From assembly GCF_024464185.1 (NCBI RefSeq), contig NZ_JANHAU010000002.1, forward strand, positions 930,001 through 994,000: a DNA stretch of 64,000 nucleotides, given 5' to 3'. Source of the stretch: Haloarchaeobius salinus (lineage in GTDB: Archaea > Halobacteriota > Halobacteria > Halobacteriales > Natrialbaceae). The notes beneath the pieces were generated by a model that had not been told where the DNA came from, searched no databases, and saw only the letters and a list, made by a program, of their open reading frames with translations. The translations under genes and the position numbers were made by a program. Of this stretch, positions 26,938-46,548 are shown in pieces. The number at the start of each line of letters is the position of its first letter. Positions within the stretch are counted from its first letter, which is position 1.

Positions 26938-27040
26938 CGCCCCTCCCACCGTTCTGCACTCGGATCAGTATCTGTGCTCGGGTCGAGTATCGTCCCGCAC
27001 GCCCCAGTTTAATGACGACAGGTTGAGAAAGGTTGTAGTA

Positions 27041-29625: not shown

Positions 29626-29691
29626 TCCTGTGTGAGTGAATCACTACGTTGCCAGGAGAAAAATCACAGGGGTAGACAGGGAGTCTGCCGG

Positions 29692-30903
29692 TTACTCTGC
29701 AGTCTGAATTTCGGTGCGAATATCCGTCAGTTCCGATTTTACCTCCCCCTCGATCTCCTCTAGTTCCTCGTCGATCTCGTTGGCCGTCTTCCTGATTGAG
29801 GTGGTCTTCTTCCGAATCGTACTGAACCGGTCAATCGAATCGCTCACCTCACTCACGGCATTCTGAATGGCTTCCGGATCGAACGCGGTGCCCGAATCGA
29901 CGTACCCTTGAACCGCTCGTGTCCGCGCCCAGTTGTACGCGATTCGAAGGAAGCCCGGTTCGACGTCGTCGTCCTCGGTTTCTTTGAGGGCAACGGAGAG
30001 CCGCTCGGAATCGAACTCGTGGAAGTACCCGACCTTGTTCGGGATGTAGGACTCGCACTCGAAGACGATGATCCCGTAATCGGCGTCACGGTTCTCCACG
30101 GCGTCAGCGAGTTCCTCCTTGATACCGCGCTGTGAGTACCCGCTGTCGCTTTTCGCTTCGACGACGATTCGCTGACCAGTATCGTTGAGCGTGATGACGA
30201 AGTCCCCGACTTTCCGGCCACTGATCTCACCAATCGTGTCGCCGGTGTACTCGACTTCGTTACTCGTGTTGTACACAAGGTTCGAGAGTATGTTCTCGAC
30301 GGTGTCTTCGAAGTCGTCGCCCTTCAGCGTGGTCCGCTGCCGGATCTCTTCCTCCGTCTCCTCAGCGGTCGCTTGCTCCTCGATTTTATCACGAAGGTCT
30401 TGAATCTGATCCTGCAACGTCCGCTTGAGCCGGTACGTCGGTGTTCCCTCCGTATCGGGATCCAGCGCCTTCTGAATGCGTTCGCCGTCCTCACCGAGCT
30501 CTTCATCGAGGCGCTCGGTAAACGGCCCGTCTTCGCTGAACGCGTCCTCAATGTGCTGCTTGAGATGCCCATCCTGACCGAGATGATCCTCGAAAATCTG
30601 GGGGACGTGACCATCGTCGCCAAACTTCTCTTCAACCTCGTCCTCGATCCGGTCAATTTCCTCTTGGAGATCTCGCTGCATCTCAGTGAACTTCCGCTCG
30701 ACGTACTCCTCCTGCTGAGACGTTTCCGCGAGATCCAGCGTCGTTACACCGACACGCAGCGCTCTGACGAAGGCATCCTCCCGCTCCCGATCATCGTCAA
30801 ACTGCTGGAGATAATCAACGACCGTCGAATCCGTAATCTCAACATCAGTTACGTAAGCGCGGCCGTCATCCATCTCTATCCGAGGAACCCCTTCAGTAGC
30901 CAT
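29692..30903 (-). CDS. Coiled-coil protein with PD-(D/E)XK-like nuclease domain
   Basis: 403 residues. Residues about 60-200 form a long, very acidic coiled coil (REREDAFVRALRVG, QQEEYVERKFTEMQRDLQEE, LKRTLQDQIQDLRDKIEEQ). Then DDFEDTVENILSNL, KVGDFVITL (D), RIVVEAKSDSGYS (E-x-K) and ADYGIIVFE give the core of a PD-(D/E)XK domain like DUF2130/RmuC-related nucleases. A second coiled coil ends the chain. A TATA-like TTTTATTTAG (minus strand, about 30930-30940) lies 28 bases upstream of ATG 30903. It may cut DNA as a dimer or larger assembly; target unknown. Confidence 0.65.
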   Translation of the reverse strand: MATEGVPRIEMDDGRAYVTDVEITDSTVVDYLQQFDDDREREDAFVRALRVGVTTLDLAETSQQEEYVERKFTEMQRDLQEEIDRIEDEVEEKFGDDGHVPQIFEDHLGQDGHLKQHIEDAFSEDGPFTERLDEELGEDGERIQKALDPDTEGTPTYRLKRTLQDQIQDLRDKIEEQATAEETEEEIRQRTTLKGDDFEDTVENILSNLVYNTSNEVEYTGDTIGEISGRKVGDFVITLNDTGQRIVVEAKSDSGYSQRGIKEELADAVENRDADYGIIVFECESYIPNKVGYFHEFDSERLSVALKETEDDDVEPGFLRIAYNWARTRAVQGYVDSGTAFDPEAIQNAVSEVSDSIDRFSTIRKKTTSIRKTANEIDEELEEIEGEVKSELTDIRTEIQTAE

Positions 30904-31083: not shown

Positions 31084-34000
31084 ATGGGATCTATTGACAA
31101 CTCAGGTATGGATATCGAACGCGTTATTTCGCAAGCAGAAGGGCAGATAGACCGTCAACTGCTTTCTGGCCAAGGGGAGGGAGGGCTATTTACCACGGGA
31201 TATCTCTCTGACAGTCCGTTTTATGAACTTTTGTCCGCGAACGAGGTACCTCACTACCTATTCGCCTCAGCGAAGAAAGCCCCGACCATCGATGGGCACC
31301 CCCAACGAGACTCTCTTGATGACTACCGCGCGATTACAGCTGTGACGAGTGATAGGATTCTCTATGCGGTCGGCGCGAGCGATGGCGATATCACGGGCGA
31401 AATTGGGTACGATGAGATTGATGCGGTTGATATAACAGATGTTGGGTCACCACTTCGGTCGAAACCCGTACTCCTCGTCGAGACTGTAGATCAGGAGTAT
31501 CGGTTCTACGGTGCAAATGTCGCCAACAGGGATTCGTTACTTGATTTTATCCGCGAACAAATCACCAATGTCTACGAGTCGAAGACGCGAAAGCACATCG
31601 CCGACGCAAAGGAGGCACTAAGCGATGGCAACCTGACGCAAGCCGCTGATCAGATAGATACAGCACGGGAATTCTTCGGCGTAGCCAGTGAATGGCGAGA
31701 GCTAATTACGCGCGACGCTGATCTAGCAGATCTTGACGCAGAGATTGACTCGCTGACTGACCGTCTCTCTGCTAACCGCACTATTCAGTCGGTGCTCAAA
31801 GACGTCCAAGGGGCCATCGAAGACGGGGACGCCGCATTTAAAAAAGGCGATATCAACGAAGCGGGTGCCAAGTACAAGGAGGCCTATGACTGTCTAGATG
31901 ATCTTGACGAAATGGTTGAACTGAATGCTATCCTAGGAGAAAGTGATATCAATTCTGTACGCTCAGAGTTGCGAGTTCGGGACTTTGCGACAACTCCTAC
32001 CGAAGTTCATCGGAGGTTGCGGGATCGTCTTGAAAGAGCACGTAGTGCCGAAGCGGCATCCGAAAGGACGAGTGACCCGAAGCAGGCAAAAACTAATCTC
32101 GAAGCTGCTGCCGAGACTGTAAAGGAGTATTTCGATGAACTCCAGAGCGCCAATATCGGATTTGCCGAATGCACCCCAGAAGGGCAATGCGATGGCTGTG
32201 GTCGGCCCATCGGTGTTGACCTTAATATCGAAATCGGAGGGGTCCCCGTCTCGGTTTGTGCACCCTGTTCCGAATTTGGTGATAACCGGCTACTCACCGA
32301 GGACGAGGCGGAAGAATACATTGAACAATTAGAAACAAAGCGTAAGCTGACTGGACCACTTCCGGCCGCAGTTCGACGTATCAATAATAGCCACAGCCGG
32401 ACACCCACTCCTGACGAAGTACTTTCTGAGGCCGGCGTGTCTGCCACCGCTTTACAGGAGCGGTACGGATCGTACGAAGATTTGCTCGATTCTCTTGATT
32501 TAGATCCGACATCGGACCTCCTAAATGATCTCCGGAACGTCGCAGACAAGGTCGAAAGACAGCCGACTAAGGAGGATGTTCGAACGCATGGCCGGTACAA
32601 GATAGCGCGGTTCCTCACTCACTTCGGCGACTGGGAGAGTGCACTCCAAGCAGCTGAGCTTAACACAACCGAAGGGGTCAATGGGTTAGCCGGAAACGAC
32701 TCCAAAGAAGGTGATGACGGTGACGAAGGTGATGAACTGGATACCCCCACTACAGAAGAACTCCTCGCCCCCGTACGAGAGGCTGCTAATACACTTGGAC
32801 GCCCGCCAACGTATCAGGAAGGAATGGATCGAACCCAATTCTCAGGCAGCCAGTACGGTAGTCAGTTGGGCACCTGGAACGATGTCTTAGCGGCCGCTAA
32901 TCTCGATGTTCGAGAAGCCTTGTGCGAGGATTTACGATCAGTAGCTGACGAGATGGGCATGACTCCGATGCGGCAAAATCTTGAGGAATATGCGACGTAT
33001 CCACCACGCCTTTACGAGGACTGCTTCGGGTCAATTGAAGCCGTGATTAAGGCCGCCGGGTTCGAATTGGTCAACACTGATCGGTACAACTGGATCAAAA
33101 GCCTCCGAAAGCTATACCTGGAGAAAGGGGAGGTTCCGTTACCATTCGACGTACGAGATCGCGCGCCAAATCTGCTTGACGAAATCTACGACGATGTTCA
33201 GACCTGGGATGAGGCTTTAAGTAAAGCCGGAATCCGCAAAGGTGACCAGGACGATTTCGCCGAACGGCTGTTGATGGAACTCCAGCAAGTCGGCGAGGAA
33301 CTTGGCCATCAACCATCACGACAAGAGTTCAACCGTTACGGATCATTGCCCGTTTCGGAGCTCGAATCACACTTCGACTCATTCAAACAGGCACTTTCCG
33401 TGTCTGACCTGGACCTGCCGTCAGGACGACCTGTTCAGGGTCCGCTCGATGAACCGCCAGATGCAAGTGGTGAAATACCATCTCACACTGACCTACTCCG
33501 CGAACTCCACTGGCTTGTCGAACGAAAAGGTAGATCAGATGCCCGAGAGCGATTCGAAGAAATCGGCTCATTTGACGCTGAGCACTACGATTTGCAGTTT
33601 GGATCACTTGATGATGCGTTTGACCAATTATTTGAGATCCAACAATCCGATACTCGCGGGAGCGAATACGCTCCGCGACGCATCCTCGTTGACGAACTTA
33701 GCCAGTTCGGTGAATTTCTGGAGCGAGCACCAACGCTGATCGAACTGCTCTACTATAGTAGTGTTTCTCTGGAGAAATTCTCCGAGAAATTTGAGTCATT
33801 AGCTGACATCTATAATGCGGCAGGGTTTGAGTACGATGACGATTTGCCGTCGAACGAAGAGCTTCTCAACGACATTCAGCTAGTTGGTGAAGAGCTTGGT
33901 CGCCCACCGACACTCGATGAGTATGCTGACCACGGTCAATTTGACTATGCAAATGCTATTCGTCGATTTGACGGGTGGATTCCGACGCTAAACGCGGTCG

Positions 34001-36630
34001 GCTACGACTTATTATCAACTGTCCCGAGTCTTCAGTACTACCGAACTATAGAGGTTGACCGAGTTCGATTCGAGTCTATACTACGATTCCAAACCGGCTT
34101 TGGGGAAATGGCAATATTGTTGGACGACCTCTACCGTCTTCAACACCAGTTCGGAGACGAACTTTCAGCTCAGTTGGTCGCCGAATACGGTCGCTATCCG
34201 ATAACTGCCTATCAGTCCGCCTTCGGTACAGTTGATTCAGCAATCTCGACAATCGGGCTAACTCCTACCAATGCAAGCGTTGGTGTTCAGATACTTGACC
34301 AGTCTCTCCGGACATCGTTCAGCAATATCAAGATGAGGCTGGGACGGCAGCCGACACAAGAGGAAGTAGATGCACTTGGCGAGTATGTGTCGATAACCTA
34401 CGTTACCCGATTTAGCTCGTGGGATACAACGCTTGACGAGTGCCTTGAGTCATCTGACCTTGATGACCACAAGGCCCCAACCCCCTACGCACTGCTCTGG
34501 GAGCTTGACCGTGTCGCTGAAAAAATCGGGGATACCCCGAATCCGGGGGTACTCCTGGCAAAGGGACAATACGATGCCGATGTGTACCTCGACACCTTTG
34601 ACTCCTGGCAGGCCCTCTACGAAGCCGCGGGGTATGAGTGGGAACATAGCGAAGGGGTAGGAACGGCAGCTGCTCCTGGGGAACTTGATACTACTAGAAA
34701 TGATTCGGATGACGCGAGCGACGAGGGGCTGTCCCGAACCGATGACGTGAGTATTCACGAAGAGACGGATGGCACGGAAGCCAAGTCAGGTGACAATGCA
34801 GACGCTTCGGAGGAGCTGGCTACTAATTCCCAGGAGAACGAAGAGCGGCAGGAGATGATCGATACCCTCCAAGACCTCTACGACGATCTTGGTCGGATTC
34901 CGCTTGCACAGGATATCCGGGATCAGACAGAATACTCTCAACACGACTATACGTCTGAATTCGGAAGCTTGGACGATGCACTTGCAGAAGCAGGATATGA
35001 CAAGCGTAAGGCCCTGCTAAAGGAGTTGGAACGAGTCGCAGATGAACTGGGCCGTCCCCCCACTACTGTTGATTTCGCTGACAATGCTGAGTTCTCTTCA
35101 GCGCTATACACGCAGTACTTCGGGTCTTGGGAAGATACACTTGAAGCGGCCGGAGTCAGCAAAGAAGATAACGACGACAGCGACGGTGCTGACAAAAAAG
35201 AGTCTGACACGAGTACAAGCGGCTCCGCCTCTAGCGAATCACAAGCCAATAGCAGCGAGAAGGGAAATGCCCCAGATCAGCCGTCCGACGAGGAATTGCT
35301 TGACGAACTTCGAACCCTCGACAAAAGGTTGGAGACGGTTCCCCGATGGGGTGATATGAACGAACGAGGCGCATATAAGAGTCAGACATATATCGACAGA
35401 TTCGGATCGTGGGACGACGCTCTCGAAGAAGCTGGTGTTGATAAAGGTGGCCAATTGCTCGCAGAACTCAAACGAGTCGCGGACGAACTCGGTCGAACTC
35501 CATCGACGGTAGCTATGAACGAGCGGGGACGATACAGCGCCTCGATGTATGCGAAGTTCTTTGGCTCCTGGAGTAACGCTGTTGACAAGCTCGACAGGAA
35601 GGAGACAAGAACTAACCAAGAGACTGATCCCACGAAGGAGTCTGAAACTCCCGAGAAGGACGCACTTATTAGTGAACTCAATCGGCTGTCTAACGAGACT
35701 GATGGCTTAGTGAAGGCTACAGATATGCAGGAGGATGGGGCGTACGCAGTCAATCAATATACTGAGCAATTCGGGTCGTGGGACGAAGCTCTCGATGAGG
35801 CAGGAATTGAGCGGAAGGCTCAACTCCTGAACGAGATCGAGCAAGTTTGGGAGCAACTCGGTAGACGCCCCTCAACGGTCGAGATGAACAAACATGGACG
35901 AGTATCGGCTACGACAGTAACCAAGTACTTTGATAGTTGGGAGGATGCTTGTGATCTGGCGGACCCGAACATCGATTCAACTGGTGGATATAATTTCGAT
36001 AAAAACTCAAATCAGAACAAATCGGAAGAGTCTGGTCCTAACCATGAACTGGATGGGGAAGAGATTAATCGGCTACGCGATATTGTTCGGTTACAACCGA
36101 CGAAAAACGCCGAATTGAAGGACCAGTGGGGGTTGGAAAGTGGAAGCGAAGTGCATCGGTACCTGGAGTTTCATTTCTCGAAATACTATTACCGCGACAA
36201 AGATTCATATATTCGGGCAACTGAGGTGGGAGAGTCAATAATTGAGGATCCTGAAGGCGGGGCCCCTGCCAACGGCAAATCAGTCGGTAAGACGGATTTA
36301 CGACGACGCGACCTGATCCTATCTCTAGTTGAGCTCTCAGAGAAGGTGGACCATCTTCCCGGTCCAAACGAAATCAAAGAACAAAGCGAGTATGCCCTCC
36401 AACGATATCAAGAAGAGTTTGGTAGTCTTATTAACGCCTACAAGGCGGCGGGTCTTCTCCCAGGGGATGCTACGAAGGAAGATTTCCATAGAGAGATAAG
36501 ATTAGGATCGAACTCCGACAGTAGATACAGTGAATTCGATGAATCAGAGGAGGATGCAGCTCCCCAAGATGATTCGGGAGAAATTGATGATGCGTTAAAG
36601 AAGAAAATGTTATTCGACGAGGGGATTTAA
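31084..36630 (+). CDS. Giant protein: PH-like domain, zinc knuckles and about 19 HNH-repeat units
   Basis: 1848 residues. Residues about 45-165 look like a bacterial PH-type domain (RAITAVTSDRILYAVGAS, DEIDAVDITD). Helical, tetratricopeptide-like segments follow (170-345), then CDGCGRPIG and VCAPCSEFG, a four-cysteine zinc site near 375-405. From about 420 to 1800 I count about 19 copies of a roughly 50-residue unit, for example LKRVADELGRTPSTVAMNER followed by YSASMYAKFFGSW and ending AGVDK. This is the homing-endonuclease-associated repeat, known to bind DNA as small helical modules. No HNH or LAGLIDADG active site is present. One winged-helix segment interrupts before the last copy. First gene of the AT-richer operon; an alternative start at 31108 is possible. 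In Pbe-type systems such a protein could read modification state; that is inference. Confidence 0.75.
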   Translation: MGSIDNSGMDIERVISQAEGQIDRQLLSGQGEGGLFTTGYLSDSPFYELLSANEVPHYLFASAKKAPTIDGHPQRDSLDDYRAITAVTSDRILYAVGASDGDITGEIGYDEIDAVDITDVGSPLRSKPVLLVETVDQEYRFYGANVANRDSLLDFIREQITNVYESKTRKHIADAKEALSDGNLTQAADQIDTAREFFGVASEWRELITRDADLADLDAEIDSLTDRLSANRTIQSVLKDVQGAIEDGDAAFKKGDINEAGAKYKEAYDCLDDLDEMVELNAILGESDINSVRSELRVRDFATTPTEVHRRLRDRLERARSAEAASERTSDPKQAKTNLEAAAETVKEYFDELQSANIGFAECTPEGQCDGCGRPIGVDLNIEIGGVPVSVCAPCSEFGDNRLLTEDEAEEYIEQLETKRKLTGPLPAAVRRINNSHSRTPTPDEVLSEAGVSATALQERYGSYEDLLDSLDLDPTSDLLNDLRNVADKVERQPTKEDVRTHGRYKIARFLTHFGDWESALQAAELNTTEGVNGLAGNDSKEGDDGDEGDELDTPTTEELLAPVREAANTLGRPPTYQEGMDRTQFSGSQYGSQLGTWNDVLAAANLDVREALCEDLRSVADEMGMTPMRQNLEEYATYPPRLYEDCFGSIEAVIKAAGFELVNTDRYNWIKSLRKLYLEKGEVPLPFDVRDRAPNLLDEIYDDVQTWDEALSKAGIRKGDQDDFAERLLMELQQVGEELGHQPSRQEFNRYGSLPVSELESHFDSFKQALSVSDLDLPSGRPVQGPLDEPPDASGEIPSHTDLLRELHWLVERKGRSDARERFEEIGSFDAEHYDLQFGSLDDAFDQLFEIQQSDTRGSEYAPRRILVDELSQFGEFLERAPTLIELLYYSSVSLEKFSEKFESLADIYNAAGFEYDDDLPSNEELLNDIQLVGEELGRPPTLDEYADHGQFDYANAIRRFDGWIPTLNAVGYDLLSTVPSLQYYRTIEVDRVRFESILRFQTGFGEMAILLDDLYRLQHQFGDELSAQLVAEYGRYPITAYQSAFGTVDSAISTIGLTPTNASVGVQILDQSLRTSFSNIKMRLGRQPTQEEVDALGEYVSITYVTRFSSWDTTLDECLESSDLDDHKAPTPYALLWELDRVAEKIGDTPNPGVLLAKGQYDADVYLDTFDSWQALYEAAGYEWEHSEGVGTAAAPGELDTTRNDSDDASDEGLSRTDDVSIHEETDGTEAKSGDNADASEELATNSQENEERQEMIDTLQDLYDDLGRIPLAQDIRDQTEYSQHDYTSEFGSLDDALAEAGYDKRKALLKELERVADELGRPPTTVDFADNAEFSSALYTQYFGSWEDTLEAAGVSKEDNDDSDGADKKESDTSTSGSASSESQANSSEKGNAPDQPSDEELLDELRTLDKRLETVPRWGDMNERGAYKSQTYIDRFGSWDDALEEAGVDKGGQLLAELKRVADELGRTPSTVAMNERGRYSASMYAKFFGSWSNAVDKLDRKETRTNQETDPTKESETPEKDALISELNRLSNETDGLVKATDMQEDGAYAVNQYTEQFGSWDEALDEAGIERKAQLLNEIEQVWEQLGRRPSTVEMNKHGRVSATTVTKYFDSWEDACDLADPNIDSTGGYNFDKNSNQNKSEESGPNHELDGEEINRLRDIVRLQPTKNAELKDQWGLESGSEVHRYLEFHFSKYYYRDKDSYIRATEVGESIIEDPEGGAPANGKSVGKTDLRRRDLILSLVELSEKVDHLPGPNEIKEQSEYALQRYQEEFGSLINAYKAAGLLPGDATKEDFHREIRLGSNSDSRYSEFDESEEDAAPQDDSGEIDDALKKKMLFDEGI

Positions 36631-36675: not shown

Positions 36676-38643
36676 ATGGACAGAACCACTACTCGGCTAA
36701 AGGATATTGAACTTCCACTATTGCAGGAAACTGCTACAGATGACCTGATAGAGGACTTTTATACCCCATGTCTGCAGGTGGCGACTGAGTATAAGCGCGC
36801 GGTTGGCTACTTTACCAGCAGTTGGTTTGAAGTAGCTGCTACTGGGATGGCGGGTCTTGCCGATAATGGAGGGACAGCGAAATGGATCATTAGCCCAAAA
36901 CTGGCCACTGATGATTGGGAAGCAATCAAGCGGGGTGAAGCTGCTCAACGTGATGGAGAACTCTATTCCGAGATGGAAGGGTTAGTTAACGACCTTCAAA
37001 CAAATCTGGAGGAAAACACGCAAAATACTCTCGCCTGGTTAATCGCCGATGGATTACTCCAGATCAAGATCGCGGTTGCTCAGGGCCAACTCACCGGCGA
37101 TTTCCATGATAAATGGGGAGTAGTCACCGACAAATATGATGACAAGATAGCCTTCCATGGCTCCCAAAACGATAGCCGAAAGAGCCTCACAAACTATGAG
37201 GCAAATTCAATTTTCACGTCGTGGCGATCAGAATTGGACGCAACTAGAGTACAACAGCATGAACAACGCTTTGATGATCTCTGGGAGAATCAGAAATCTG
37301 GAGTCCAATGCTTCAATCTCCCGGATAGCGTGAATTTAGATATTGTGGAACTCCGTTCTGACGAACGGCCATACCAGGACCCCGGAGAGAAGACTAAACT
37401 TACTAGTCCATATCGTTGGCGACACCAAGAGGAGGCAGTGGATGCATTTATTGAATCAAAATCTGGCATCCTCGAAATGGCGACGGGAACGGGGAAAACG
37501 AGAACCTCGCTCAAGATCCTTGACCGCCTTCTTCGAGATGATGAAATTGAGGATCTTGTCGTCGCAACACACGGCAACGATCTACTTAACCAATGGCGAG
37601 AAACTCTATTAGAACACTTTTCACCAGGTGAGATGTTTCTATATCGTCAATATGGTGGGGCGAAGGAATTAGGAAACTATTTGGCGGCAGATAATGACCA
37701 CGTTGATGTCCTACTGACCTCTTATTCGAATCTTAGTGATGCTATTGACGGGGATACGACGAACAAGCTTAGTGGTGCGCTTCTGATATGTGATGAAGTA
37801 CATAACATGGGCGCGGAAACTAAGCAGGAGCAATTAGGTGGTGAATTGAATGTCTTCCCGTACCGACTGGGGTTAAGCGCGACACCTTTTGATCCATACG
37901 ATCAAGACAGGAATGAATTTTTGAAGAATGAGGTCGGATCGGTAGTTTATGAATTTGGGTTGGAATCGGCAATTCGCCGTGGGATTCTCTGTGAATTTGA
38001 TTATACCCCGCTCACCTATGAACTGTCGGAAGACGATAAGAAGGCGCAGAAGGAAGCATTTCGAAAGTTTGCGGGTATCAAAAGACAGAATCCATCAATT
38101 CCACAGAGCCAATTGTATATTATGCTTTCTAGGGTCCGGAAAGAGTCACATCAAAAACTCCCTGTCCTGCGAGAGTACCTGAATAAGAATCCAGATATCC
38201 TAGAGAGTTGTATCATTTTTGTGGAAACAAAAGATTTTGGCCATGAAGTACAGCAGATAATATTCGATTACGTCGATAATTTCCACACATACTATGGTGA
38301 GGATGACGAATCTAATTTAGAATCGTTTTCGCAAGGGGGCCTATCGACTCTTGTCACAAGTAGAGCTATTTCTGAGGGGATTGATATCCAATCGGTTAAA
38401 AATATTGTATTATGCACAGCCCCCCGTTCCCGAGGAACGACGATTCAGCGTATCGGCAGAGCGTTACGTAAGGACCCATCCAACCCTAGCAAAAAGGCTA
38501 ACATCGTAGACTTTGTCGTTGGAAGTGACATCCACAGCGACGAAGTTGAGGATACAACAGATGGAGATCAGAGTATGACACCCCCCGATAAAGATAGATA
38601 CGAATGGCTAAAAGATCTGAGCACGGTAACCCAGGTAGAATAA
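36676..38643 (+). CDS. PLD nuclease fused to SF2 DEAD/DEAH helicase
   Basis: 655 residues. The N-terminal domain has F-H144-D-K146 and later AFHGSQNDS (about 159-167), the HxK...GSxN core of a PLD nuclease. The helicase domain has Walker A ATGTGKT (269-275), DEVH (373-376), LGLSATPF, and motif VI TTIQRIGRALRK. Such PLD-helicases are known effector or loading parts of restriction and defence systems. It starts 45 bases after the giant gene and ends three bases before the 62-residue gene. I think this is one of the phosphorothioation-linked restriction (Pbe-type) genes described in haloarchaea next to dndCDEA, but I cannot assign the letter from memory. Confidence 0.85.
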   Translation: MDRTTTRLKDIELPLLQETATDDLIEDFYTPCLQVATEYKRAVGYFTSSWFEVAATGMAGLADNGGTAKWIISPKLATDDWEAIKRGEAAQRDGELYSEMEGLVNDLQTNLEENTQNTLAWLIADGLLQIKIAVAQGQLTGDFHDKWGVVTDKYDDKIAFHGSQNDSRKSLTNYEANSIFTSWRSELDATRVQQHEQRFDDLWENQKSGVQCFNLPDSVNLDIVELRSDERPYQDPGEKTKLTSPYRWRHQEEAVDAFIESKSGILEMATGTGKTRTSLKILDRLLRDDEIEDLVVATHGNDLLNQWRETLLEHFSPGEMFLYRQYGGAKELGNYLAADNDHVDVLLTSYSNLSDAIDGDTTNKLSGALLICDEVHNMGAETKQEQLGGELNVFPYRLGLSATPFDPYDQDRNEFLKNEVGSVVYEFGLESAIRRGILCEFDYTPLTYELSEDDKKAQKEAFRKFAGIKRQNPSIPQSQLYIMLSRVRKESHQKLPVLREYLNKNPDILESCIIFVETKDFGHEVQQIIFDYVDNFHTYYGEDDESNLESFSQGGLSTLVTSRAISEGIDIQSVKNIVLCTAPRSRGTTIQRIGRALRKDPSNPSKKANIVDFVVGSDIHSDEVEDTTDGDQSMTPPDKDRYEWLKDLSTVTQVE

Positions 38644-38646
38644 TCT

Positions 38647-38835
38647 ATGGCTGATAAGTTCTCCTACGAGGAGACCGCCGGCGACATCTTGGAAAAGTTT
38701 AACCAAGACGATAGCTTTGAGCAGCGGTTTATCGGATTCTGTCAAAATGCTATGGAAGGTAAGGCGGAGGACAAAGACTTGGAGCGGCTGATTTCCAACG
38801 TTAAGCTTTCTGAGGGTGAAATCAATGAAGCTTAG
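38647..38835 (+). CDS. 62-residue acidic protein between helicase and SMC-like genes
   Basis: Starts three bases after the helicase stop with MADKFSYEETAGDILEK and overlaps the next gene by 11 bases. The tight packing supports a real gene. It is helical and acidic (DDSFEQRFIGF, DKDLERLISNVKLSEGE). It could be a small subunit bridging the helicase and the SMC-like ATPase. No family is recognised. Confidence 0.6.
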   Translation: MADKFSYEETAGDILEKFNQDDSFEQRFIGFCQNAMEGKAEDKDLERLISNVKLSEGEINEA

Positions 38836-40795
38836 AGTCGAGGAGATCCGATACGAAAATATTCGAGAGTTCGGTGATATGCGTCTCGATTTCACCCGGG
38901 AAGGATCTAACGAAACCCATCACATCTCGTTGGTTCAGATGCCAAACGGTACGGGGAAAACCACAACTATGGAACTGATTCGGCATCTGCTCCTCGGCAC
39001 TAAGCTAGAAGAAGAGCAAGTGCGGGAGTTTGCTCCGGATCCAGAGTACGCCCCAGAGTATGCCCCTTCTCAAGGGGAATTTGTTATGACCTTTGCGACT
39101 GACTCTATCCGATTTCGAATCCATATGGAACTCGACTATGAGATGGGGTCAGTTCAGTATCGCCACTCGTATCCACAACGCGAAGGTGGCGGTACTGACA
39201 GCGGTCATTTTCTACCACTTGAACTTGAAGACGCTCTTACCGAGGATTTTGTCGACCTATTCGTGTTTAACGGCGAACTCACAGACGATTTCATCGAAAC
39301 TGGTCACGATAAGGCAGAAAACGCCCTCAAAATAGTTAGCCGGCTCGACCGAATTGAACGGCAGCGGGAACGTATCGACCGGATAGTTGAGAAGCGCCAA
39401 GAGGATTCCGGTGCTAAAACATCTCAAGGGCTTAAGCAGGTGCGTACACGGCTTAATTCGCGGCGTGAGAAGCTTCAGACACTAGAAGAACGCCGGGATC
39501 AACTTAACAAGGATATCAAGCAGCACAATTCCACAATAGAGGACCTAAAAGAAGAACGCGAAGAGATCATCGCTGAGGACAAAGAGGCATTAGAGCGATA
39601 TAAAGAACTAGAAGAGGAGATTCAGCGCCTTCAGACAAAGCTACAAAGCGATGCAGGGGACCTCTTGGATGATATGCGGAGGCCCAGCGCGCTCGCGGCT
39701 GACTTTAATGAAGACTTCTCAGAACTACTGGAGCATATGACAATTCTGAAACTACCGAAGTCTACGTCAGAAGAATTCTTTAATGAGTTGGCTGAGGGGG
39801 AGACCTGTATTTGCGGGCGAGAGCTGAATGAGGAACATAGAGAGAAGATACGCAAGAACGCTGAAGAATACCTATCCGACGAAGACATTGGTGTACTCAA
39901 TACCCTCAAAGAGCAGCTAAGAAACACAGCAGATGTCGAAGACTTTGAATCCAGGTTCACATCGCTCTCAGACACTCGCCAGGAACTCAAGAAAAATGAA
40001 ATGGAGCAAGACCAATTGGATTTGGATGATCCTGAACTGGAACAAAAAAAGCAAGAATTGACCGAGAAGATAGAATCCGAGCGGAACTCGCGCAATGAGA
40101 AGCAGGAAAAAGTGGATTTACTGACCACGGATGATAAAGGTCAACGTGAACGATTTGACCTGGATTGGAAGACTAATATCCCTGAAGCAAAGCGGGAAGT
40201 CAACAAGTACGAGAAGAAGGTTCAGCAGGCAAGTGATACGGTCGAGTTCAGTAAACAGGCAGATAAGCTCGAAGAAATATTCGACGAATTTATTGACCGC
40301 AGTTTGTCGGAACTCAAGGAGCGTCAGATTCAGGAGACGAACGAACGTCTGAAACAGATTCTCGGATTGTCTGAGGTCCAAATCGAGTCAATTGATGATT
40401 CGATCAAACTACGGGGTAAGAGTGGGTCGTCAGAGGGCCAATCCCTATCAGTCGCATACGCATACCTCTCTACGCTGTTTGAGGGCTCGCAAGTAGACAT
40501 GCCATTTGTGATCGATAGCCCGGCCGTCAGTCTCGATCACAAAGTTCGGCGTGAGGTGGCAACGATTATTTCTGGCCTGTTTGACCAACTCGTCGCGTTT
40601 GTCATCTCGACAGAGAAAGAAGGATTTGTACAAAACTTAGAACCGATGCAGCACGATGGATTTGAGGATATACAATATTATACCGTTCACAAAACCGACA
40701 CACCTGGTGTAGTCCAAAAGCATACTGACCATGACTTCTTCATGGAGTTCACTTCTGAGGAGGAAGAAGCAACTACTACTGTGGGGGCAGAGTAA
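38825..40795 (+). CDS. DndD-like SMC/RecN-type ATPase
   Basis: 656 residues from ATG 38825; a GTG nine bases upstream is the other option. Walker A PNGTGKTT (40-47), two long coiled coils (about 190-275 and 370-500) separated by a CxCGREL zinc-hook-like motif near 335, an ABC signature region SSEGQSLSVAYAYL, and Walker B MPFVIDSPAVSLDH. This is the plan of SMC/Rad50-like ATPases and of DndD. Because a second, more typical DndD is encoded at 43027-45054, I read this copy as the ATPase of the restriction operon and not of the modification complex. It ends two bases before the next gene. Confidence 0.85.
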   Translation: MKLRVEEIRYENIREFGDMRLDFTREGSNETHHISLVQMPNGTGKTTTMELIRHLLLGTKLEEEQVREFAPDPEYAPEYAPSQGEFVMTFATDSIRFRIHMELDYEMGSVQYRHSYPQREGGGTDSGHFLPLELEDALTEDFVDLFVFNGELTDDFIETGHDKAENALKIVSRLDRIERQRERIDRIVEKRQEDSGAKTSQGLKQVRTRLNSRREKLQTLEERRDQLNKDIKQHNSTIEDLKEEREEIIAEDKEALERYKELEEEIQRLQTKLQSDAGDLLDDMRRPSALAADFNEDFSELLEHMTILKLPKSTSEEFFNELAEGETCICGRELNEEHREKIRKNAEEYLSDEDIGVLNTLKEQLRNTADVEDFESRFTSLSDTRQELKKNEMEQDQLDLDDPELEQKKQELTEKIESERNSRNEKQEKVDLLTTDDKGQRERFDLDWKTNIPEAKREVNKYEKKVQQASDTVEFSKQADKLEEIFDEFIDRSLSELKERQIQETNERLKQILGLSEVQIESIDDSIKLRGKSGSSEGQSLSVAYAYLSTLFEGSQVDMPFVIDSPAVSLDHKVRREVATIISGLFDQLVAFVISTEKEGFVQNLEPMQHDGFEDIQYYTVHKTDTPGVVQKHTDHDFFMEFTSEEEEATTTVGAE

Positions 40796-40797
40796 TT

Positions 40798-41259
40798 ATG
40801 TCATTCAGACTTAGCTCCTCGGCTCGGGATTATTTCGATAAGATTGAACAGAATAGCTCTACGGGCGATTTCGATAGTATGTGGGATAAATACTATCTGG
40901 CAGCTATGGTCGGAATCAAAGCTCGGGACCGAATTCGAACCGATGAAGAACCAACAGATGATCCCTTTGTCGAATCTGTCATCTCAGATTATGATGATCA
41001 GAAATACGAGATTTATGCGGCACTAATAATGGCAGAAATCGAGCGACAAAACATCCCTAAACGGGAAGAAACCGAGATTCGCCATCTTATGTTGGAGATC
41101 TTAGACTCGACGGATCCAACCCGATTAACGTCCTACGGGAAGACCTTATTAAATTGCTATGCGGAACGAGGATATCGGATTCTCGAAAATGAGGTTCCTG
41201 CTCCTGGAGAGTTCGACCAGTTTCTCCGGCAGTATCATAACACCTTAGAGTCAGTGTAG
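40798..41259 (+). CDS. Small helical protein closing the Pbe-like operon
   Basis: 153 residues, start two bases after the SMC-like stop. Helical and charged throughout: SSARDYFDKIEQN, KYEIYAALIMAEIERQNI, RHLMLEILDSTDPTRLTSYG, YAERGYRILENEVPAPGEFD. The size and place after an SMC-like ATPase are reminiscent of kleisin-associated small subunits, but I recognise no sequence motif. It is the final gene; a 187-base convergent gap follows before dndA. That gap holds no gene that I can see. Confidence 0.65.
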   Translation: MSFRLSSSARDYFDKIEQNSSTGDFDSMWDKYYLAAMVGIKARDRIRTDEEPTDDPFVESVISDYDDQKYEIYAALIMAEIERQNIPKREETEIRHLMLEILDSTDPTRLTSYGKTLLNCYAERGYRILENEVPAPGEFDQFLRQYHNTLESV

Positions 41260-41446
41260 TTGCCTCACCGTCGAAAACGGCTCCTATTAAGGCCTACATG
41301 TACGGTACAGAGGTAGAGAAGTAGTCGTTCTCATTAATGGATGTGAGAACCCACCGTTCCATAAACTAATTTACTCTTCCAAATAGAGTCACTCACCCCG
41401 GTTTGATCCCAATCTGCCACTCCTGTTATCACAAATAAATCAAATC

Positions 41447-42625
41447 TCAGAAGTTAAGATTACGAAGCCGATTGACGATTTTGATCACCTCCTCGGTAGC
41501 GTATTCAACCTCCTTCTGGGTATTGTCTTTCCCGAACCCGAAGCGAATCGCATTATGCCAGACATCTTCGTTATCAGTAATCGATTGAAGCACGTGGGAG
41601 GCTTCGACTGTGCCGGTGGTACAGGCTGATCCTGCGGAGACGGCGATGTCCGGTTGCAGGTTTTTGACCAGGGCTTTGTTCTCTACTCCGGTGAAGCTGA
41701 TGTTGAGGTTGTTAGGGATCCGGTCTTCCGGGTGGCCGTTGAGAACGACGTCGTCCAGTTCGTCGTTCAACCGGTCCCACATGTAGGAGGTTAGTTCGTC
41801 GACGTGCTGACTCCGTTCCTCCAGATTTTGATCCGCCATTTGCACGGCTTTTCCGAATCCGACGATTGCGGGGACGTTGAGTGTCCCGGAGCGCCAGCCT
41901 CGTTCGTGGCCTCCTCCGTGGAGTAGCGGGTTGAGTTTGACTTTCGGGTTCCGTCTTCTGACGTAGAGTGCGCCGACGCCTTTCGGCCCGTAGATCTTGT
42001 GTGCGGAGATGGACATCAGGTCGATACCCATCTCTTCGACGTCGATGGGGAGGTATCCGAGTGCTTGGACTGCGTCGGTGTGGAAGAAGACCTCGTTCTC
42101 TTTGGCGATTTCCCCGATCTCCTTTATCGGTGCGATGGTGCCAATTTCGTTGTTGGCGGCCATGATGGAGATCAGGATGGTTTCGTCCCGGATTGCGTCC
42201 TGAATGTCTGCAGGATCTACCTTCCCGTTTTCGTCGACGGGTAGGTAGGTGACGTCGAAGCCGTCTGTTTCCAAGTCTTCGCAGACTTCGAGTACTGCTT
42301 CGTGTTCGGTGACGGCAGTTATGATATGGCTGCCTTTGTCGTTGTCAGCTGCGTAGTCTGCTGCTCCTCGGATTGCCAGGTTGTCCGATTCGGTGGCTCC
42401 GCTGGTGAAGATGATCTCTTCTTCACGGCAGTTTATTGCTTCCGAGACTCGTTCTCGGGCCTGGTTTACTGCTTGCTTCGCTTTTGCCCCGAAAATGTGG
42501 TCTTCGCTGGCTGGGTTGCCGTAGCTTTCTGTGAAGTAGGGAGTCATCTCCTCGACGACCTTTTCGTCGACGGGTGTGGTGGCGTGGTGGTCGAGGTAGA
42601 TGGGTGTGTCCACGTCAGAAGTCAT
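41447..42625 (-). CDS. dndA: Cysteine desulfurase DndA
   Basis: 392 residues of the NifS/IscS fold. PLP-binding lysine K210 in SISAHKIYGPKG, H108 in AVTEHEA and the catalytic cysteine C335 in SAGSACTTGT are all present. DndA takes sulfur from cysteine as a persulfide and passes it to DndC for DNA phosphorothioation. Last gene of the dndC-D-E-A set, starting three bases after dndE. A host IscS-like enzyme would have the same motifs, but gene order makes the Dnd role clear. Confidence 0.93.
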   Translation of the reverse strand: MTSDVDTPIYLDHHATTPVDEKVVEEMTPYFTESYGNPASEDHIFGAKAKQAVNQARERVSEAINCREEEIIFTSGATESDNLAIRGAADYAADNDKGSHIITAVTEHEAVLEVCEDLETDGFDVTYLPVDENGKVDPADIQDAIRDETILISIMAANNEIGTIAPIKEIGEIAKENEVFFHTDAVQALGYLPIDVEEMGIDLMSISAHKIYGPKGVGALYVRRRNPKVKLNPLLHGGGHERGWRSGTLNVPAIVGFGKAVQMADQNLEERSQHVDELTSYMWDRLNDELDDVVLNGHPEDRIPNNLNISFTGVENKALVKNLQPDIAVSAGSACTTGTVEASHVLQSITDNEDVWHNAIRFGFGKDNTQKEVEYATEEVIKIVNRLRNLNF

Positions 42626-42628
42626 TCG

Positions 42629-43030
42629 TTATCCTTCCTGTTGGGCTTCCAGTCCTTTTATCTCTCCGGGAACGAGGTCGTAGAAGTCGCTTAGGTCGCT
42701 TACGTTACCTGCTACTCGTTCGACGCCTCGGTTGAGGTGTGCGACGAACTCTTCGTAAAGGTCCTCTTCGGGGTCTTTCCCTTCCTGGATGAGTCGTTCT
42801 TTCAGGAGGGCCATGTAGAGGGTGTCGTGTTCTCCGAGCAGGGTGTACCGGTTGAAGGTTTGCCCGTCAGTGTCGTACTGCTGCGGGTTTGGCGGACGTG
42901 GCTCGTTGAGGGAGTAGCAGAAGCCAATTCTGCCGAGGTAGTTGGGTGTCATCCCGGTGTTGGCTTTCAGCATTTTCAACTGGTTGGTGGCGTCGCTGTC
43001 GATGGTGATCCGGTTGAATTTCTGGCTCAT
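42629..43030 (-). CDS. dndE: DNA-binding phosphorothioation protein DndE
   Basis: 133 residues, in the usual size range of DndE. It is small, helical and rich in basic residues in its first half (KFNRITIDSDATNQLKMLK, TPNYLGRIGFCYSL), with an acidic C-terminal half. DndE proteins bind nicked or duplex DNA in the modification complex. Its start overlaps the stop of dndD as ATGA (43027-43030), supporting co-translation. The assignment comes from position between dndD and dndA plus the TPxYLxRxxxxxSL pattern typical of the family. Confidence 0.85.
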   Translation of the reverse strand: MSQKFNRITIDSDATNQLKMLKANTGMTPNYLGRIGFCYSLNEPRPPNPQQYDTDGQTFNRYTLLGEHDTLYMALLKERLIQEGKDPEEDLYEEFVAHLNRGVERVAGNVSDLSDFYDLVPGEIKGLEAQQEG

Positions 43031-45054
43031 GATGTGATCTCCCCGAGTGATCGCTGATCTTCGTCGTCTTCGGTCCAGAAGTAGCCTTCCGAGGGAACGG
43101 TTTTCCCTTCCTCTTCGTCGTACTCCAGCCGGTATGCCTGAGAGATGTATCCTTCCAGTTTCTGGTACTGGTGGTCGTCGATCTCCGTGTCGGTGGAGAA
43201 GATGATCACTTGGTGTGCTGCTTCAGGGAAGAAGTGGGTGATCAGGTTGTCCCGGTGATCGTTGTCGAGGCGGCCGAGCGGTGTGTCGACGATGAAGGGT
43301 AGTGGCCGGTCGGAGATCTCTGCCAGTGCCCAGAGAAGGGATGTGGCGAAGATCTGTCGTTCCCCGGCTGAGAGCTCTGTGTGCGGCTTGCTGTTGCCGT
43401 GGATGGTCTTGATCGTGATGTCGAGGTTTTCTTCGTTGATCTCGATTTTGTCGTAGAAGTCGCCCTTGTTGGAGAGGGTGATGTAGCGTTCGCTGAGTTT
43501 CGACTCCAGTTTCCGCAGCTTCTTCTTGGCGAGTTCTTCGCGGAAGTCCTTCACGGCATTTCGGACGTCAGAGGCGAGGTCTGCTCGTTCGGAGACATCT
43601 TCGACACGGGATTTCTGCTCAAGCTTGTTTTCGACCTCGTTCTCTTTCCGCTCTAAGCGGGTCTGGGCTGTACTGATTTCTTCCTCCAGTTCTTCGAGCC
43701 GCGATTTGATGGCTCCCTTCTCCTCAGTAAGCTCGTTCAGGTCATCGATCAGCGGTGAGATGACCTCTTGGTCAGGAGCTTTGTTGAGACCGGATTCGAC
43801 CTCTTGGAGTTCCCGCGTTTTGTCTTCCAGGCTCTCTGTGAGGTCGGCAAGCTGGTCCGGGACGTCGTTCAGGGCTCGGTCGGTAAGCGAGTAGATCTCC
43901 TGTCGCTGTGCCTCCGAGAATTGGTGGGCGAGTTCCGGGTCCTCGTCTTCGATTTCCAGCCGGCTTTTGAGTTTATCCTGGATGCGGTCAGAGAGCTGTC
44001 CGACCTGATCTTCCGGCATATTCATCTCTTCCCAGACGTCCTCGTCACCGAGTACGTCGTCGAGTTCGTCGGTCAGCTCGTTCCTGGCGGTCGCCCGGTT
44101 CTGGCGTTCGGTCTCAGTCTTCAACCGGTCAACTACGGATTCACAGAGATCCGGTGCCAGGGTGAACGGGTACGCGCCTTCAGCGAGGTCTCGGATCTGG
44201 TCTTCGAGTTGTTCGATACTGGCGTTCAGTTCAGCTCGGCGTTCCTTGAGTTCCTCTCGCTTGTCGGCGTAGGAGCCGCCCTCTTGGGCGATCTTCGATT
44301 CCTTGTTATCAATCTCGTCTTCCAGCTCTGCTAGTCTCTGCTCCTTCTCTTCTCTTTCCTGTTTCAGGTCCTCGAACTCCTGTTCGATTTCGTCTCGCTG
44401 GTTCTGAAGCTCCTGGATTTCGTCTTTGATCCCTTCTACACCGCTTTCTTCGAGCTTCTGGGAGATGTAGATGGATAGGTCGGTGTCCAGGCGTTCAATC
44501 AGGTCGAGGCCGAGGAGTGAGTACATCGAGTCCTCGAAGTCGGCGTCAGATTCGACTGCTGACGCAAGCTCCTGGATTTTCTCCCCGTCGAAGAAGAACA
44601 GTTGGGAGACTCCTGGCGGAACCAGTTCTTTCAGGAAGTCCTGCCACTGGTCCTCGTTGAGTTCGGAGGGGATCTCTCCGTTCCTCCGGACTTTCAGGTC
44701 CTCGACGATGCTTTTGCCACGGTCGCGCCAGGAACGCTCCACAGAGTAGTGGTCCACTTCGCCCATGTGGGAGTACTCAAACTCAAGTCGGACAGCTGCT
44801 GTATCTGCTTTGCCGTCGGGGTATTCATGGAGCTTGCTGCGGATTGCTTGTTCGTAGTCTTTCCGGGCAGTGCGACGGCCGAGCGAGGATTTACCGTGGA
44901 GACAGAATCCGATTGCTTCGAATAGCGTGGTTTTCCCCGCTCCGTTTTTCCCGCCGAACAGTACGATGGGAGAGTCTTCTGTTGAGCTGAGCTCGATTTC
45001 GTTACGACCTCGGTAAGGGCCGAAGTCTGTGATGATTAGCTTGTTGATTCTCAT
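43027..45054 (-). CDS. dndD: DndD, SMC-like ATPase of the phosphorothioation complex
   Basis: 675 residues. Walker A FGGKNGAGKTT (33-43), long coiled coils from about 190 to 290 and 400 to 520, signature region HTELSAGERQIFATSLLWAL and Walker B PFIVDTPLGRLDNDH followed by the switch motif QVIIFSTD. DndD is the ATPase that works with DndC and DndE to place sulfur in the DNA backbone. It starts 12 bases after the dndC stop. Compared with the SMC-like gene at 38825 it has no zinc-hook cysteines, so the two copies are distinct subfamilies. Confidence 0.92.
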   Translation of the reverse strand: MRINKLIITDFGPYRGRNEIELSSTEDSPIVLFGGKNGAGKTTLFEAIGFCLHGKSSLGRRTARKDYEQAIRSKLHEYPDGKADTAAVRLEFEYSHMGEVDHYSVERSWRDRGKSIVEDLKVRRNGEIPSELNEDQWQDFLKELVPPGVSQLFFFDGEKIQELASAVESDADFEDSMYSLLGLDLIERLDTDLSIYISQKLEESGVEGIKDEIQELQNQRDEIEQEFEDLKQEREEKEQRLAELEDEIDNKESKIAQEGGSYADKREELKERRAELNASIEQLEDQIRDLAEGAYPFTLAPDLCESVVDRLKTETERQNRATARNELTDELDDVLGDEDVWEEMNMPEDQVGQLSDRIQDKLKSRLEIEDEDPELAHQFSEAQRQEIYSLTDRALNDVPDQLADLTESLEDKTRELQEVESGLNKAPDQEVISPLIDDLNELTEEKGAIKSRLEELEEEISTAQTRLERKENEVENKLEQKSRVEDVSERADLASDVRNAVKDFREELAKKKLRKLESKLSERYITLSNKGDFYDKIEINEENLDITIKTIHGNSKPHTELSAGERQIFATSLLWALAEISDRPLPFIVDTPLGRLDNDHRDNLITHFFPEAAHQVIIFSTDTEIDDHQYQKLEGYISQAYRLEYDEEEGKTVPSEGYFWTEDDEDQRSLGEITS

Positions 45055-45066
45055 GAGGCCTATCAG

Positions 45067-46548
45067 TTAGACGTCTACTCCGTCGTATTCCCACGCTTCT
45101 ATACGGTCTTCACCTTCGAGTTCAGCGACGATCTCCGACATGTCCCGCCAGTCCTCTCGCATGACTTTGTCAAGCTCGCTGTAGATGGATGCGCGCCGTT
45201 TCATGCCGTAGTGCTGGAATTCGGTGTCGAGCAGACGTTTGACGAGTTCTGCGGGGACATCATGTTCTTCACAGACCTCGCTGAGGACTTCTGCCTCCAT
45301 CTCACCGAAGGAGCCGAGATCGTCGTGGACCCAGTCCAGGTCGTCGTCCATAACCTCGTTATAGATCTGGGGTACGGAATCTTCCCAGTCAGCACGTTCT
45401 TCGCGCCAGAGACGACGGATCTCTTTGAGCTCTTCTTCCCTGATCAGATCCATCTCCTCGTCTTCAGGGATTTTCTCGTTGACCTCTTTCTGAGTCTCCA
45501 AGAGCTTCCGGAGCAGGTCTTTGCAGAACTCGAACTTGTGGGCACGTGGGATGATGCCGTCACTGCCGTTGGTCTTCTCTTTGACATAGCCGTGTTGCCG
45601 GCCCTTGACCATCCGGTAGTTCGGCTTCTTCTCGGGATCCTGCGTTTCTTTGAGGAAGTCACGGAACTCCAAGAGGGGTTCCATCCATTCGTCGCCCTCG
45701 TCGATCATATTCTCCATCGCCTTGTCTTCGGAGACGACTGTGCAGGTCCAGCAACCGAACCGGCTGTTGCCGCAGGAAGGTGTCTTCGTGTCGATCACCA
45801 TCGGGCACTCGTCGTCTGCTTCCTGGTAGAGTGCGGCGAGGTCCCGGTTGTTCTTGCCCCAGGGGTTGTCGACGGCTTGAATGAGGTAGGTCCAGACGTC
45901 GTCGACGATCCAGTCCTCGATAGGTGTGTAGACGAAGGCGTTGGCGAACTTGTTGTGGCGTGAGAGGACGCTGCCGTCGATACTGTGCATCTCCATTACC
46001 TGTTCTCGCGTGGCCGATTCTGCTTTCCGTGCTCCGAGGATTACAACTACTTCTCCGTGTTCAGAGACCTGGTTCTCGATGAATCGGTCTGCAGGGTCGA
46101 TTTTGAGGCGTTCCGTACACCAGCGGAAGTTCTGGTTCGGTGCCGGGTAGCCCCGGCCGATAAGGTTGACCCAGAAGGAGTCGTCAACCTTGGGAGTGAC
46201 CTTGTGGGCGGTGAAAGGCAGATTTTTCTTTTCTGCGTATTCGTTGATATTTTCCAGAGTGGAGATGATGTGGTTGACGATTTTCGGCGTTTCTACTAAA
46301 GTATCACTTGAGATGACATGGATTGGCTTCTGCCTCTTCTCTTCTGGAAGGTCTTCGATGGCGTACCAAATTAGCTGGAGGGCAGTGGTGGAGTCCTTGC
46401 CGCCACTGTAGCCGATGACCCAGGGGCGGTCATCCGCCAAATAGGTTTCCTGTATCTCTCCGTAGATGTCTTCAAGAGAGCGGTTGTCGAAAACGGACTC
46501 GCCTTTTTCCTGGCCAGTCTTGGCAACCTCTAAATTATCTGTACTCAT
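45067..46548 (-). CDS. dndC: DndC, PAPS-reductase-like sulfur transferase
   Basis: 493 residues. The nucleotide-binding loop SGGKDSTT begins at 48, and cysteines C144 and those in PSCGNSRFGCWTCTVV (C259, C266, C269) supply the Fe-S cluster expected of DndC. The protein activates the DNA backbone and receives sulfur from DndA. First of four tightly packed dnd genes. A perfect palindrome (46582-46595) lies 34-47 bases upstream, and an AGAGGA Shine-Dalgarno-like sequence precedes the ATG by about eight bases, so translation is from a leader. No dndB homologue is visible in the window. Confidence 0.95.
   Translation of the reverse strand: MSTDNLEVAKTGQEKGESVFDNRSLEDIYGEIQETYLADDRPWVIGYSGGKDSTTALQLIWYAIEDLPEEKRQKPIHVISSDTLVETPKIVNHIISTLENINEYAEKKNLPFTAHKVTPKVDDSFWVNLIGRGYPAPNQNFRWCTERLKIDPADRFIENQVSEHGEVVVILGARKAESATREQVMEMHSIDGSVLSRHNKFANAFVYTPIEDWIVDDVWTYLIQAVDNPWGKNNRDLAALYQEADDECPMVIDTKTPSCGNSRFGCWTCTVVSEDKAMENMIDEGDEWMEPLLEFRDFLKETQDPEKKPNYRMVKGRQHGYVKEKTNGSDGIIPRAHKFEFCKDLLRKLLETQKEVNEKIPEDEEMDLIREEELKEIRRLWREERADWEDSVPQIYNEVMDDDLDWVHDDLGSFGEMEAEVLSEVCEEHDVPAELVKRLLDTEFQHYGMKRRASIYSELDKVMREDWRDMSEIVAELEGEDRIEAWEYDGVDV

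Follow-up and report, generated by a model that had tools for sequence, protein, structure and literature searches.

What might a giant repeat protein without a nuclease contribute to an antiviral operon? The question is raised by a stretch of 64,000 nucleotides from the haloarchaeon Haloarchaeobius salinus (contig NZ_JANHAU010000002.1, positions 930,001 to 994,000; hereafter the window), in which a frame open throughout positions 31084-36630 encodes 1848 residues, according to the window's open reading frames and their translation. The protein carries repeats of the family PF18780 (HNH_repeat, here HNR), the 'homing endonuclease associated repeat'. Its gene and domains are laid out as follows.

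31084..36630, plus strand: gene of the giant HNR protein, 1848 aa, heading the pbe operon
31144..31551, plus strand: N-terminal PH-fold (bPH_3-like) domain, residues 21-156, predicted from profile reach and a model
32188..32268, plus strand: zinc-ribbon-like CxxC...CxxC (C369xxC372...C392xxC395), residues 369-395, from the sequence
32371..35967, plus strand: HNR repeats 1-18, residues 430-1628, from Pfam and the protein's own profile
35290..35595, plus strand: signature tight HNR pair, residues 1403-1504, from leave-one-lineage-out scores, alignment and structure
36052..36285, plus strand: DUF5797 domain, residues 1657-1734, Pfam E 2.1e-27
36325..36456, plus strand: HNR repeat 19, residues 1748-1791, from the protein's own profile

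PF18780 matches the giant with 634 bits (E 1.5e-195, Pfam), and 16 stretches pass the Pfam cut-off on their own. When a profile is built iteratively from the repeats themselves, it recognises 19, spread over residues 430-1791 and all scoring more than 36 bits; 200 shuffled versions of the protein reached at most 3.7 bits. It is the longest HNR example that we have seen, the next being a protein with 13 repeats in Halobacteriaceae archaeon SHR40. A profile of the N-terminus reaches relatives whose Pfam match is bPH_3; that match occurs in homologues only, and the giant's own PH domain is assigned by an AlphaFold2 model, with seven strands followed by a helix (mean pLDDT 75.8), and by Foldseek, in which PH and PH-like structures lead the list (best E 1.9e-4). 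Residues 368-411, around the cysteines, match aMBF1 weakly in NCBIfam (E 0.004). Neither Pfam, PADLOC nor NCBIfam finds a nuclease domain in the giant, and in Pfam there is no HNH match at E 1. The first-pass annotation of this DNA had described an 1848-residue protein with about 19 repeats, a PH-like domain, a zinc site and no nuclease, all of which holds; DUF5797 was missing from its list. A scan of genome contigs with the whole protein found no relative, and P0001 searched against phages gave no match.

The genes that follow, and those that face them, are these.

36676..38643, plus strand: pbeA, PLD-type nuclease region and SF2 helicase, 655 aa, PADLOC PbeA E 3.1e-176
38647..38835, plus strand: pbeB candidate, 62 aa, an open reading frame between pbeA and pbeC, named by position and size only
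38816..40795, plus strand: pbeC, CxC ABC-ATPase, 659 aa, PADLOC PbeC E 1.9e-26
40798..41259, plus strand: pbeD candidate, 153 aa, after pbeC
41447..42625, minus strand: dndA, PADLOC DndA E 4.4e-172
42629..43030, minus strand: dndE, TIGR03184 E 7.2e-23, above cut-off
43027..45054, minus strand: dndD, PADLOC DndD E 2.5e-208
45067..46548, minus strand: dndC, PADLOC DndC E 6.8e-205

On one strand, the giant's gene is followed after 45 bp by pbeA, after a further 3 bp by pbeB, then by pbeC and, 2 bp on, by pbeD, the published system's order pbeA-pbeB-pbeC-pbeD, with pbeB recognised by position and size (the published pbeB has 66 aa; PMC6459918). In Pfam, PbeA shows ResIII, Helicase_C and PLDc_2, the last below the cut-off (21.8 vs 27 bits); PbeC carries its CIC motif at residues 331-333 of the Met-started protein, and the pbeD candidate shares 51-70% identity with the gene that follows pbeC in related loci. 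The PLD-helicase and 'SMC' genes earlier noted behind the giant are PbeA and PbeC (a CxC ABC-ATPase), and the dnd genes said to face the operon proved, by profiles, to be dndC, dndD, dndE and dndA, adjacent to one another.

Judged from its sequence, the window operon is the published haloarchaeal DndCDEA-PbeABCD antiviral system together with one extra gene, the giant. The system of H. jeotgali A29 (Xiong et al. 2019, PMC6459918) likewise has dndC, D, E and A with pbeA, B, C and D; its cassettes, however, lie in tandem, where those of the window face each other, and it has no HNR gene, where the window has an 1848-aa one heading the pbe operon. The pbe half corresponds to a CxC-ATPase system in the accessible part of a later survey (PMC10853773). 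The CxC ABC-ATPase/DndE-anchored systems treated in that part (Kaur et al. 2024) share the HKD nuclease-SF2 helicase, the CxC ATPase, a small protein and the DndE cognate, but their extra parts are methylases, MTaX1 and nucleases, with HNR/PH proteins unlisted there. An extra gene of the giant's type goes unmentioned in the accessible text of PMC6459918 and PMC10853773. Our literature search, a 2020 ABC-ATPase survey lying outside it, found no paper linking PF18780/HNR to Pbe or Dnd, and the sole text mention of PF18780 that it returned was in a modelling table.

The giant/pbe/dnd region is lower in G+C than its flanks, and a plasmid of Halorubrum trapanicum matches its dnd half at 94% DNA identity; at L036, the locus of the genome that matches the dnd half, the pbe half has just 53-62% protein identity to that of the window, and no HNR gene lies within the stretch covered. 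(L-numbers such as L036 and L227 denote loci of relatives compared with the window.) The lower G+C and the near-identical dnd half beside a divergent pbe half point to modular, horizontal exchange, and comparison of window positions 36676-46548 with L036 suggests an exchange of effector halves. Neither Rfam nor a tRNA scan gave a match in the region. Diverging from the giant's operon are two restriction endonuclease genes of the Mrr_cat type (28279-30903, minus strand); they were not found at the other Pbe loci, and a test for kinship between the giant's N-terminus and these divergent Mrr-like genes found none. A 416-aa protein without a Pfam or NCBIfam match is encoded at 27023-28273 (plus strand); its identity is 73-77% with genes close to PbeA in L040 and L045, and 37% with genes close to PH-HNR proteins in L060 and L061.

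Is the giant, then, a peculiarity of one genome? PbeA was compared at 57 loci (the window and 56 others, the majority from Natrialbaceae and two further families of haloarchaea), a locus being called HNR-linked when a gene with at least three HNR repeats lies no more than 10 kb from PbeA. HNR genes occur at 10 of the 57 (the window and nine others), compared with 2 of 40 random regions and none of 20 that surround a different PLD-helicase (Fisher p=0.0115 against the 60 controls, and 0.013-0.031 with PbeA clustered at 60-90% identity), the random regions being partly chromosomal so that the plasmid-rich HNR background may be underestimated. The linked proteins other than the giant, with its 19 repeats, have 3-9: three in L037 and L105, three together with DUF5797 in L040, L085 and L118, seven in L122, L123 and L124, and nine in L106. 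At 9 of the 10 linked loci the HNR gene borders the pbe cassette directly, no more than about 60 bp away; it lies upstream of pbeA in the window and, elsewhere, beside the small gene that follows pbeC. A 968-979-aa gene stands on the HNR gene's other side at L122:2019-4925, L123:16151-19057 and L124:15859-18798, and a similar, partial gene lies near the HNR gene at L106:2-2059.

The first-pass annotation held that such repeats normally come in a few copies beside HNH nucleases, and it would count occurrence mainly away from dnd clusters against its reading; the survey corrects the first point and, on the second, goes against that reading. HNR-HNH endonucleases (PF18780 with PF01844) do share the repeat family with the giant and differ from it in their HNH domain, the giant having many more repeats, PH and DUF5797 domains and a place in a Pbe operon instead. 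An HNH domain is present in the single random-region HNR protein that was scanned (control L161), and in the plasmid records viewed most HNR proteins bear the annotation hypothetical or HNH. HNR proteins that lack a nuclease and have 4-9 repeats are nevertheless common, besides the one with 13, and no nuclease domain was found in the Pbe-linked HNR proteins scanned. Further, HNR genes in haloarchaea occur mostly away from dnd clusters; among the 10 linked loci, dnd genes are nearby in six and not near in four (L106, L122-L124).

The repeats are also found beside, and within, helicases. An HNR gene follows a ResIII helicase of 817-920 aa by 15-115 bp in L081, L084, L093 and L212, and a CxC-type ATPase is close by in L081, L093, L212 and L227. 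In L227 (Haloquadratum walsbyi J07HQW2) a helicase, a PH protein with four HNRs, a PbeA-like protein, a CxC-ATPase and a dnd_assoc_4 gene share one strand in the order seen in the window; in this locus and in L081, the match of the gene after the CxC-type ATPase to dnd_assoc_4 is below the cut-off. No dnd genes were found within the stretches covered around the helicase/CxC modules L077, L081, L093, L212 and L227. As a recurrent module (L081:8337-19997, L093:4209-14439, L212:69-12484, L227:2-9404), four of these loci combine the ResIII helicase, an HNR protein with 4-13 repeats and the CxC-type ABC-ATPase, with a PbeA-like helicase that has no detected PLD in three and a dnd_assoc_4-like gene in two. 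Moreover, a family of 1600-aa proteins (L053-L055, L075, L076, L078, L079) holds a helicase akin to that of these loci, a PH domain and four HNRs in one polypeptide, and such SF2 helicase-PH-HNRx4 fusions of 1570-1600 aa (L053:5506-10308, L204:6407-11131, L205:5924-10726) are found on haloarchaeal plasmids and other contigs. A split helicase/HNR pair at L058 was left uncounted as independent evidence of fusion because it is 97-100% identical to the fused genes and is probably an interrupted copy of one. The PH head is joined in still other proteins to Mrr_cat nuclease, PadR-like or helix-hairpin-helix domains (L064:7936-9939, L060:8939-11440, L059:5704-8862), as though it served haloarchaeal DNA-acting proteins as a common adaptor. 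A DUF5797-HNRx3 protein lies near a DpdJ-like 1362-aa helicase in L082-L084, with a 973-aa nSTAND-like protein near its gene in L083 and L084, possibly another defence module.

These arrangements bear on the thought that HNR genes are merely frequent, mobile passengers of plasmids and defence islands that landed beside pbe by chance. Strong HNR copies do occur in 91 of 236 haloarchaeal genomes, the window island is of lower G+C with a dnd half that looks horizontally acquired, and the linked lineages are few (4-7), which makes the statistics modest. Against this stand the immediate adjacency, which recurs in several PbeA clusters, the shared gene order in H. walsbyi and the fusion of HNR to helicase genes, and we regard a chance link as decidedly unlikely. 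We conclude that HNR proteins recurrently accompany Pbe and kindred helicase/CxC effectors as accessory partners, and most likely they would engage DNA on behalf of these effectors. Given the shorter relatives beside related operons in other archaea, the repeat proteins give the impression of a DNA-handling partner of this defence family that has been overlooked.

Best-hit kinship among linked repeats over the whole set is not significant (permutation p=0.12), which counts against a DNA-engaging subunit, and a tight-pair profile was used in its place. Scored without their own lineage, 11 of 13 linked proteins reach 110 bits or more for a tight HNR pair joined by a short linker, as do 6 of 32 other proteins, five of the six being helicase fusions; the giant's pair (residues 1403-1504) is of the type common to other Pbe-linked HNR proteins. 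A genome scan with this signature pair partly refinds the query loci, so that only L212 and L227 were counted as new module-linked cases.

As for the fold, a model of an HNR pair built from the window's repeats alone is of high confidence (mean pLDDT 91.5), with four short helices per repeat. Foldseek found no match to it below E 0.001, and no solved structure related to it by sequence was found; its matches in VIA-align are mostly TetR-type helix-turn-helix domains (Z 5-6, short of what would prove a common fold). The top VIA-align match of the HNR (Z 7.2, 54 residues, 2.0 A, likewise short of such proof) is the first coupler subdomain of SauUSI, an ATP-dependent restriction enzyme (PDB 7CLG, PMC7913695) that comprises nuclease, SF2 ATPase, coupler and target-recognition domains. 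SauUSI resembles PbeA in its N-terminal nuclease and SF2 ATPase, but it is a single chain with an SRA target domain, unlike the separate genes of the window, and the likeness of its four-helix coupler subdomain (618-669) to one HNR is modest, with no homology shown. Structure prediction, which had been proposed for the repeats, is suggestive of a helix-turn-helix-like fold, and the matches, being below the level of proof, weigh somewhat against a DNA-engaging subunit.

The charge of the repeats raises another possibility, namely that the array has lost its DNA-binding residues and binds proteins instead, as a scaffold that gathers the Pbe subunits or as a sensor of viral proteins. The giant's repeats are acidic (mean net charge -4.4 vs -0.8 to -2.7 in unlinked repeats), and at repeat position 35, which lies in the third helix (the putative recognition helix), linked repeats have a basic residue less often (37% in the giant, 25% in other Pbe-linked proteins, 0% in helicase fusions) than others do (58%), features that speak for a scaffold or sensor and against a DNA-engaging subunit. 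A PH fold usually binds a protein or ligand, and the relatives differ widely in the number and sequence of their repeats. Most proteins of this halophile are acidic, however, and the average charge of the giant's repeats is about that of other proteins in the window, so that acidity is only a moderate argument against DNA binding. Moreover, the recurrent companions are DNA-acting (HHH_5, DpnI_C-type HTH, PadR-like wHTH, Mrr_cat and SF2 helicases), and on balance a scaffold or sensor seems unlikely to us.

A protein with helix-turn-helix-like repeats and DUF5797 could also bind its operon's own DNA, as a transcriptional regulator or a local chromatin-like silencer that restrains a toxic effector. 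The giant being the first gene of its operon would suit such a role, and the smaller HNR proteins are often encoded by single genes convergent to the pbe cassette. Yet nineteen repeats, a PH domain and helicase fusions go beyond a regulator's needs, 1848 aa is very large for one, and the partner in relatives is a helicase rather than a promoter; we would not expect this account to be right.

The first-pass annotation had proposed that the giant wraps or scans DNA for phosphorothioate marks. Its DNA-engaging part remains plausible, given the helix-turn-helix-like fold, the DUF5797 domain and the link to SF2 helicases, and scanning for marks finds no support. The giant does lie beside dndCDEA, and six linked loci have dnd genes, but the HNR link follows Pbe/helicase modules with or without them; the experimentally tested PbeABCD, that of H. 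jeotgali A29, tells PT-modified virus apart with just four pbe genes, none of them HNR (PMC6459918); and Pfam, PADLOC and NCBIfam find no sulphur-binding domain (SBD) in the giant, though one diverged beyond the reach of their profiles may be present. That it reads the marks is thus very improbable.

Overall, the reading to which we give slightly better than even chances is that the giant serves the DndCDEA-PbeABCD antiviral module as an accessory subunit that engages DNA. Its domain content, its operon position, the recurrent HNR-pbe adjacency and the operonic linkage or fusion to SF2 helicases in relatives are established at the level of sequence; we infer DNA binding by the giant, a complex with PbeA and PbeC, and a role in targeting or loading rather than in mark reading. 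The HNR units would be small helix-turn-helix-like domains strung on acidic linkers, with DUF5797 near the end, whose many weak contacts may let the giant hold or sample long stretches of DNA, and the PH-fold and coiled-coil head may tether it to its partners, putatively the SF2 helicase/nuclease PbeA with the CxC-ATPase PbeC. It should be weighed that 47 of the 57 Pbe loci lack an HNR gene within 10 kb and that PbeABCD defends without one (PMC6459918), both of which argue against the DNA-engaging subunit.

A broader proposal, tentative and on the whole doubtful, is that haloarchaea have a family of defence modules, unmentioned in the accessible text of the two papers on the system, in which an HNR helix-turn-helix array, often PH-headed, directs an SF2 helicase/CxC-ATPase effector to DNA as its targeting subunit. 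If true, this would be a modular array for recognising DNA, whether or not phosphorothioate marks are present, its number of repeats (3 to 19) setting the length of DNA held or which sequence is recognised. PbeABCD halts viral DNA replication by a disputed mechanism, no cleavage having been seen in spite of a nuclease-like subunit. A partner that recurs, seems to engage DNA and in other loci is linked or fused to an SF2 helicase may help to explain how effectors of this kind locate DNA and keep hold of it, and the HNR proteins, frequent as they are in haloarchaea, would gain a candidate function.
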